From a bacterium (GTDB lineage Bacteria > Myxococcota_A > UBA9160 > UBA6930), in assembly GCA_024228115.1 (NCBI GenBank), contig JAAETT010000232.1:1-34022 (forward strand): a DNA stretch of 34,022 bases, read 5' to 3'. The notes under the pieces were generated by a model. It did not search any database. It saw only the letters and a program-made list of their open reading frames with translations, and had not been told where the DNA came from. A program made the translations under genes and the position numbers. Shown here piece by piece: positions 118 through 1,528 of this stretch (positions within the stretch are counted from its first letter, which is position 1; every line of letters starts with the position of its first letter).

Positions 118-204
118 GCGGGGACGTTCCTTGCGAACTTGCGTTGCCCGGGTTGTGGGGGACCCACAACCCGGGCAACGCAAGTTCGCAAGGAACGTCC
201 CCGC
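118..204. repeat. 87-bp near-perfect palindrome (42-bp arms, 3-base loop)
   Basis: Bases 118-159 are exactly complementary to 163-204, with a loop of only three bases (160-162, GGA). The arms begin with GCGGGGACGTTCCTTGCG and end in CCCGGGTTGTGGG at the loop. Such a long perfect inverted repeat is far beyond a normal terminator and has no U-tract. It sits between the transposase-like tail (stop at 100) and the murA start (233). It may be a REP/MITE-type element mobilised by a transposase, or two head-to-head element ends. In RNA it would form a very stable stem in the murA leader and would also stop transcription arriving from the left or recruit RNase III. Confidence 0.9.
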
Positions 205-232
205 TTCCGGAAGCGTCCGCTAGCTTCCTGAG

Positions 233-1528
233 GTGCAGCAAAGCGGAGATTGTTTCGTCGTCGAGGGTGGTCGGCCCGTTTCTGGGACACTCCAGCCCGC
301 CGGCAACAAGAACGAAGCGCTACCGGTCCTCGCAGCCTCCCTGCTGGCTCCAGGCCAGTCACGTCTCAGCAATGTGCCGGACATCCGGGATGTCTCCACG
401 CAACTGCGCATCATGTCGGAAATGGGCGTCGTCACTACCAGGGATCCGGACACCGGCGATCTCCGGATCGACACGGCGCCCCTCGAAGGTACGGCGCCCA
501 GCGCGGAACTTGGCCGAGCGATCCGGGGCTCGTTCCTGCTCGCGCCGGGCCTGCTCCATCGCACCGGCAGCGCGGTGCTTCCTCGCCCCGGCGGCGACCG
601 CATCGGACGGCGCCGGATCGATACCCACCTGCACGCCCTGCGTCTGCTCGGGGCCGAGGTCGAGAGCCGCGAACGCCAGGTGCATCTCCGCCTCGACGGT
701 CGCTTTCGCGGCACGGACATCTTCTTCGATGAAGCCAGCGTGATGGCGACCGAAAACGCCGTGATGGCAGCCACGGTTGCCGAGGGCCATACGCGCATCG
801 CCAATGCGGCCTCCGAGCCCCACGTCCAGGGCCTTTGCCGATACCTGAACGCGATGGGTGCCCAGATCCGCGGCATCGGGACCAACATGCTCGAAATCGA
901 GGGCGTCTCCGAACTTTCCCCCGCAGCCCATCGGGTTGGCCCGGATCACATCGAGATCGGCTCCTTCGTCGCCATCGCAGCGATGACCGGCGGCGCGCTC
1001 GAGGTCGTCGACGTCGTCCCCGATGATCTGCGCATGATGTTGATGGTCTTCGCGCGCCTGGGCGTCGAGACGCGCATCGACGGAACGACCTTGCGGGTTC
1101 CGGCCAAACAAGAACTCGTGATCCAGGACGATATGGACGGTGCAATCCCCAAGGTGGATGACGCGCCGTGGCCCGGCTTCCCGACCGACTTGAGTTCGAT
1201 CGCCCTCGTACTCGCCACGCAAGCATCGGGCACCGTGCTGATCCACGAGAAGATGTTCGAGAACCGCCTCTTCTTCGTAGACCGCTTGATCACCATGGGT
1301 GCCCGGGTCGTGTTATGCGATCCGCACCGGGCTGTCGTCACCGGCCCGATCCGCCTTCAGGGCGAGACCATCACGTCTCCCGACATTCGTGCCGGAATGG
1401 CGCTCGTCGCGGCCGCGCTCTGCGCTGAAGGGCGTTCCGTGATCATGAATGCCCATCAGATCGACCGAGGCTATGAGCGCATCGATGAGCGACTGCGAAA
1501 CCTCGGAGCCCATATCCACCGTACCTGA
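233..1528 (+). CDS. murA: UDP-N-acetylglucosamine 1-carboxyvinyltransferase, Asp-type
   Basis: MurA transfers enolpyruvate from PEP to UDP-GlcNAc, the first committed step of peptidoglycan synthesis, in the cytoplasm. The 431-residue length fits the family (about 420-430). Visible marks are the N-terminal substrate loop GNKNEALP (Lys26 equals the conserved Lys of GAKNAALP), the active-site loop [15 protein letters not shown], and the C-terminal [17 protein letters not shown]. The loop residue that is Cys115 in E. coli is Asp122 here (codon 596-598), the form found in mycobacteria and chlamydiae and known to be insensitive to fosfomycin. The start is GTG 233, the first possible one: an in-frame TAG lies at 221-223. 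The sequence is rather divergent (KNEALP, unusual PRPGGD), so a MurA-like paralogue cannot be excluded. Confidence 0.9.

Follow-up and report, generated by a model that had tools for sequence, protein, structure and literature searches.

The palindrome and its surroundings

The window considered here, a stretch of 34,022 nucleotides, is contig C232 of the source genome, a draft of 6.4 Mb in 700 contigs (G000). On the forward strand, positions 1–111 carry the C-terminus of an IS630-family transposase, with its TGA at 98–100, followed by the IS right end CAAGGGA and a CTAG target at 108–111, all of which lie outside the hairpin that is the subject of this analysis. The hairpin itself occupies positions 118–204, and beyond it come a motif conserved upstream of murA within the genus (TCCGCTAGCTT, 216–226, forward strand), possibly a -10 region, and an intact murA (233–1528, forward strand) whose product scores 451 bits with TIGR01072 (cut-off 393). 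With 28 bases between the end of the palindrome and the murA GTG at 233, the hairpin lies upstream of the gene and leaves it uninterrupted. On its other side, the palindrome begins 17 bases after the TGA.

Its description of two fully complementary arms separated only by GGA is exact. The arm at 118–159 is the reverse complement of that at 163–204 at 42 of 42 positions, and the stem reaches 113–209 once two mismatches are allowed. From base composition, about 8e-19 such palindromes would be expected by chance in the window. Folded as single-stranded DNA, the region 106–232 has a minimum free energy of -69.7 kcal/mol (z = -14.1), a stability equaled by none of 200 shuffles. Complementarity, the fold, and the family search described below identify a REPIN-like hairpin of subfamily B, in which the left outer arm (120–143, forward strand; GGGGACGTTCCTTGCGAACTTGCG) is common to all five B hairpins, with one mismatch in one copy, and the right outer arm (179–202, reverse strand) is its inverted copy. 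Between them, the inner stem and loop (144–178, with stem segments 144–159 and 163–178 and the loop GGA at 160–162) vary among the B copies and are nearly fully self-complementary throughout. An assembly artefact, initially offered as one way to dispose of the palindrome, is unlikely because hairpins of the same kind turn up in genomes assembled independently, and the orthologous murA site of the sister genome G003 holds a remnant.

The adjacent IS630-family element

Positions 2–97 encode a C-terminus that shares 58–68% identity, across about 30 residues, with proteins that mostly carry an IS630-family annotation. IS630 elements prefer CTAG/TA targets, and in G003 the CTAG is intact, carries no IS, and overlaps the stop codon of the upstream gene. 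The element is present in high copy in G000, where about 40 of its right ends recur at contig ends and break the assembly; its body was seen on no contig. All 29 distinct right ends inspected read CAAGGGACTAG.

Such proximity invites the explanation that the palindrome is a product of this element, either two fused ends, as the initial annotation had considered, or a MITE of the IS, and the IS does adjoin a hairpin both in the window and at contig C503. Against this, G003 has CTAG without the IS in both of these cases. The flanks of the other right ends inspected are unrelated in nearly every instance, and an IS adjoins only a minority of the hairpins. Moreover, the IS in the window stops at the CTAG at 108–111, and the hairpin ends do not match its terminal repeats (CAAGGGA versus GGGGACGTTC). 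An IS-derived palindrome, which is barely credible, was rejected on the grounds that IS630-family ends and hairpins are distributed independently; the two are independent, and the IS landed beside the hairpin in a separate event. An enrichment of CTAG beside hairpins (0.85% versus 0.04% of positions) was likewise not accepted as a sign of insertion, since the window as a whole avoids CTAG (21 sites versus 110 expected from base composition, about 5-fold rarer) and many of its sites are at ORF ends.

A dispersed hairpin family

A search with half of the window hairpin returned further copies in G000, and the pattern GGGGACGTTCN{45,75}GAACGTCCCC gave 25 matches there, with none for the reversed control. 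Although this pattern fixed the outer 10 bp only, pairing being demanded at the extraction step, all 25 matches are near-palindromic. Pattern and BLAST searches of the draft genome put the family, with tips GGGGACGTTC, at 27 or more hairpins in G000, and 37 were counted in G003. Looking for the arm in the genome and its relatives, as had been proposed for the murA palindrome, thus reveals a dispersed family rather than a sequence unique to that site; a literature search for the arm sequence returned nothing related, judging by titles. The extracted set comprises 59 hairpins, 27 from G000 and 32 of the 37 in G003. Two rows (L144 and L137) were excluded from it as non-members, and one G003 copy (L143), dropped as a duplicate core, was later added.

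The majority of copies belong to subfamily A, whose arm reads GGGGACGTTCTTTCCGC(T/A)GTTTCCGTT with minor variants; subfamily B has five copies, the window's among them, and solo arms are also present. Outer arms of ~24–27 bp are nearly invariant across the family. In the A cores of 85 bp (n = 25), pairs 1–27 are near invariant, pairs 28–39 vary among several Watson-Crick types, about ten of the 300 being non-pairs, and pairs 40–41 are GC and CG, forming a clamp before a 3-base loop that is mostly GGA, AGA, AAA, GAA, or one of their complements. Over the 59 hairpins, 28 of 2606 pairs are mismatched. In G001, G002, G004, and G026 only the outer arms are palindromic, so membership does not depend on a perfect inner stem. 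Thirteen hairpins are found in G026, with the arm GGGGACGTTCTTGAATATTCAA and non-palindromic inner parts, and that genome (84% complete) has no PF01797 match.

Transposase genes bracketed by family arms

The initial annotation had advised looking for Y1/RAYT genes near other copies, and such a gene is present on contig C653 of G000. It encodes a Y1 protein of 296 amino acids (PF01797 at 40 bits) and is flanked on both sides by inverted 30-bp A arms. The protein also gives weak matches, below the Pfam cut-offs, to HTH_23 (E 7e-5, residues 251–283) and Bac_DnaA_C (E 0.004). A second RAYT, of about 328 amino acids, is found on contig C203 (L098 2238–3306) with its own GGGGACGGGGTTTAC arm and hairpin; neither of these domains is reported in its protein, and the contig terminates within a perfect hairpin. 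The sole NCBIfam match of both RAYTs is to the REP-associated tyrosine transposase model, at 64 bits (C653) and 51 bits, both below its cut-off of 80. A classical IS200-type gene at C273 and other, weaker PF01797 genes were set aside as partners, as the family arm does not bracket them.

Comparable arrangements recur in related genomes. At the locus orthologous to C653, G003 has a RAYT gene with the same inverted repeats, and JAFDCZ010000221, from the Deltaproteobacteria MAG Meg19_02_Bin_150, carries a C653-type gene with the same inverted repeats and the same flanking sequence, its equal match suggesting that it represents the G003:C140 locus. G001, G011, and G034 each have a RAYT flanked by arms that match the hairpins of the same genome, with small differences in G001. 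No evidence speaks more strongly for a RAYT/TIRYT system than this species-by-species match of gene and repeat, and the family extends the known range of RAYT/TIRYT repeats to an uncultured deltaproteobacterial lineage.

For subfamily B the connection is less direct, as its link to a RAYT is drawn from its likeness to A. No RAYT with B arms was found in the draft G000. A search of 80 genomes of the order gave a few B arms in G003 and G004 and two-mismatch matches in G067, and no RAYT was found at these loci. Subfamily B may be an orphan, it may be served by the A enzyme, the GCGGGGACGTTC tip being the same in both subfamilies, or the assembly may lack its gene.

Inverted conserved arms that form one long hairpin, dozens of dispersed copies, sister sites that are occupied or empty, and orthologs that differ by paired changes form the basis for reading the palindrome, with considerable confidence, as a non-autonomous, REPIN-like repeat (a TIR dimer) belonging to a Y1 (HUH) transposase system of the RAYT/TIRYT type. 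The REP/MITE option of the initial annotation was right in kind, and the Y1/RAYT search that it advised led to this reading, with an A-arm-bracketed Y1 gene elsewhere in the genome. In the proposed mechanism, the transposase would recognize the invariant outer arms as single-stranded DNA and would occasionally move or copy a hairpin to a new intergenic site, with copies vertically inherited between such events. The window copy is a member of the minor subfamily B, and no transposase gene specific to that subfamily was found; the IS630-family element arrived beside it separately.

Orthologous sites and the age of the murA copy

Fifteen G000 hairpins have an orthologous hairpin in G003, with flanks about 81–94% identical. 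Orthologous spacers in G003 are empty for the hairpins at C61:44256, C162, and C437, and show no tip remnants. In G004 the spacer corresponding to C62 lacks the hairpin, and the spacer corresponding to C151 lacks the B copy in G004, G001, and G002. No transposition event was seen directly, and some of these empty sites could represent precise losses. The C151 spacer holds a B hairpin in G000 and an A-type one in G003, and the C162 spacer holds an A hairpin in G000 and a B-type one in G004; that the same spacers hold A or B depending on species hints at preferred sites.

Upstream of murA, G003 has GCGGGGGCGTCCCCCGC, which resembles a collapsed hairpin, and the corresponding position in G004 holds a decayed hairpin of A type. 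The element is absent from this region in G001, G002, and the other genera inspected. The perfection of the palindrome had been taken as a possible sign of recent arrival. Because G003 keeps an apparent collapsed stub there, the murA copy is instead probably old and likely to predate the split from G003. Perfection belongs to the family and outlasts changes in sequence, so it is no sign of youth. More generally, "perfect palindrome" should not be read as "recent insertion."

Also to be weighed is the possibility that selection upstream of murA has favored an RNA, whether cis-regulatory or structural, or a bidirectional terminator. An element or its remnant is found at murA in three of five species of the genus, and a 42-bp stem would form a strong RNA hairpin if transcribed. 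Yet murA is kept in species whose upstream region has no element, dozens of unrelated loci carry the same family, and a search against Rfam gave no match above a family's gathering score, the sub-threshold matches being mostly to microRNA-precursor models. In addition, members of the genus share a TCCGCTAG-type motif between the palindrome and the murA start. This motif may be the -10 region of murA, in which case the hairpin would lie within or upstream of the -35 region. Given the position of this conserved motif, the hairpin is probably upstream of the murA transcript, and a selected RNA or terminator, including the structural RNA in the murA leader suggested at first, is improbable.

How the arms stay paired

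Eight length-matched ortholog pairs provide 110 inner pairs for comparison, of which 14 show compensated changes, 6 one-sided changes, and none uncompensated double changes; if the arms were independent, about 0.5–0.9 compensated changes would be expected. In seven further ortholog pairs the lengths differ and the stems are still paired. Loop polarity relative to the flanks is flipped in 5 of the 8 pairs, with an exact inversion in one (TTT to AAA), a small test in which five flips of eight are also what random polarity would give; it shows that loop polarity is not kept while the arms are. The outer arms differ at 8 of 756 sites between orthologs with flanks about 82–94% identical, and are therefore under separate constraint or concerted evolution.

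Template switching has been reported to leave homogenized arms and inverted spacers behind (PMC8604942, PMC8794818), and for this reason it is favored, as a reasonably probable mechanism, for keeping the arms identical. Inner arms would mutate, and template switching during replication (quasipalindrome correction) would then recopy them from the opposite arm, flipping the loop as well and so giving near-perfect palindromes whose sequence drifts. The paired arm changes and inverted loops are like those of inverted repeats corrected in this way (PMC8604942, PMC8794818, PMC7202029); unlike those repeats, the hairpins here form a dispersed bacterial mobile-repeat family with arms of about 40 bp, and we infer the mechanism. 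A weaker but serious alternative retains the same element and has pairing kept by selection on hairpin formation, through a one-sided mutation followed by a compensating second one, the basis of selection being either single-stranded DNA recognition by the transposase or an RNA role. Compensatory changes are common in REPIN spacers, where hairpin-forming capacity has been read as critical (Bertels and Rainey, PMC3116915), and intermediates do exist here, as the mismatched pairs and the one-sided ortholog differences attest. On the other hand, the loop flips and the changes in arm length with pairing kept fit template-switch footprints (PMC8604942, PMC8794818), and several genomes have a non-palindromic inner part despite palindromic outer arms. 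Orthologous near-perfect palindromes thus offer a dataset on whether compensatory change takes place in one step, by template switching, or in two, by mutation and selection.

A further observation concerns the SbcCD palindrome nuclease. No SbcD above the NCBIfam cut-off is found in five genomes of this bacterial family (G000, G001, G003, G004, and G011), and 8 of 14 controls pass; the match in G000 reads as a general metallophosphoesterase. SbcCD is thus possibly absent from these genomes, and if it is truly missing, long palindromes may be tolerated, which is no more than a lead. Somewhat tentatively, long near-perfect palindromes may be actively kept, with an invariant outer stem of ~27 bp recognized by the transposase, a drifting 12-bp stem rewritten with loop inversion, and a GC-clamped triloop of mostly purines (or their complements), possibly tolerated without a recognizable SbcD. 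If so, the hairpins together would preserve a natural record of template switching over the long term.

Relationship to known repeat systems

The element is of a known kind; what is notable is how perfectly its palindromes are kept. TIRtrons, in which TIRYT genes are associated with TIR repeats, were described by Di Nocera et al. in 2013 (PMC3733652), and TIRYT is probably the TnpA-Y1 subclass 2.1 of PMC6006769. As in those systems, a RAYT-like Y1 gene lies between long terminal inverted repeats starting GGGGW(S), repeat copies are dispersed and often dimeric, and a PF01797 gene is bracketed by inverted repeats of the dispersed family, here for subfamily A and its relatives (C653, G001, G003, G011, and G034). 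The C-terminal HTH_23 or Bac_DnaA_C-like domain of TIRYT proteins (subclass 2.1) may have a counterpart in the weak sub-cut-off matches of the C653 protein. The published consensus GGGGWSAS, a motif common to some TIRs only (PMC3733652), differs from GGGGACGT here in that the first six positions fit and the last two do not, and the dimers are near-perfect hairpins of 66–109 bp with a 3-nucleotide loop.

The resemblance to REPINs (Bertels and Rainey, 2011; PMC3116915) lies in two inverted conserved ends, a variable spacer that still pairs, a single predicted hairpin, compensatory changes, and scattered intergenic copies that are linked to one RAYT gene, a RAYT with the same ends being found for subfamily A and none for B. 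Unlike REPINs, the family lacks a REP monomer that carries a GTAG/GGAG tag and forms a small hairpin by itself; inspection of the arms shows no obvious internal hairpin in A and only GTTC-CTTGC-GAAC in B, and the doublet is palindromic almost to the loop. Subfamily A shows the defining features of TIRYTs and REPINs except for a GTAG-tagged REP monomer and the full GGGGWSAS. The arm ends, which read CGTCCCC outward, also recall CGTC-tagged REPs, a class in which dimers are common (PMC3733652), but those are described with stems of 8–9 bp and no associated transposase gene, whereas the arms here bracket a Y1 gene. A Desulfobacterales RAYT relative (L117 2520–4033, JAUWXF010000101.1) has inverted repeats of its own, GGGGACGTCCATYGGATTATAG, on both sides, and another inverted repeat, GGGACGTTCTCAACATTTAAA, lies close by.
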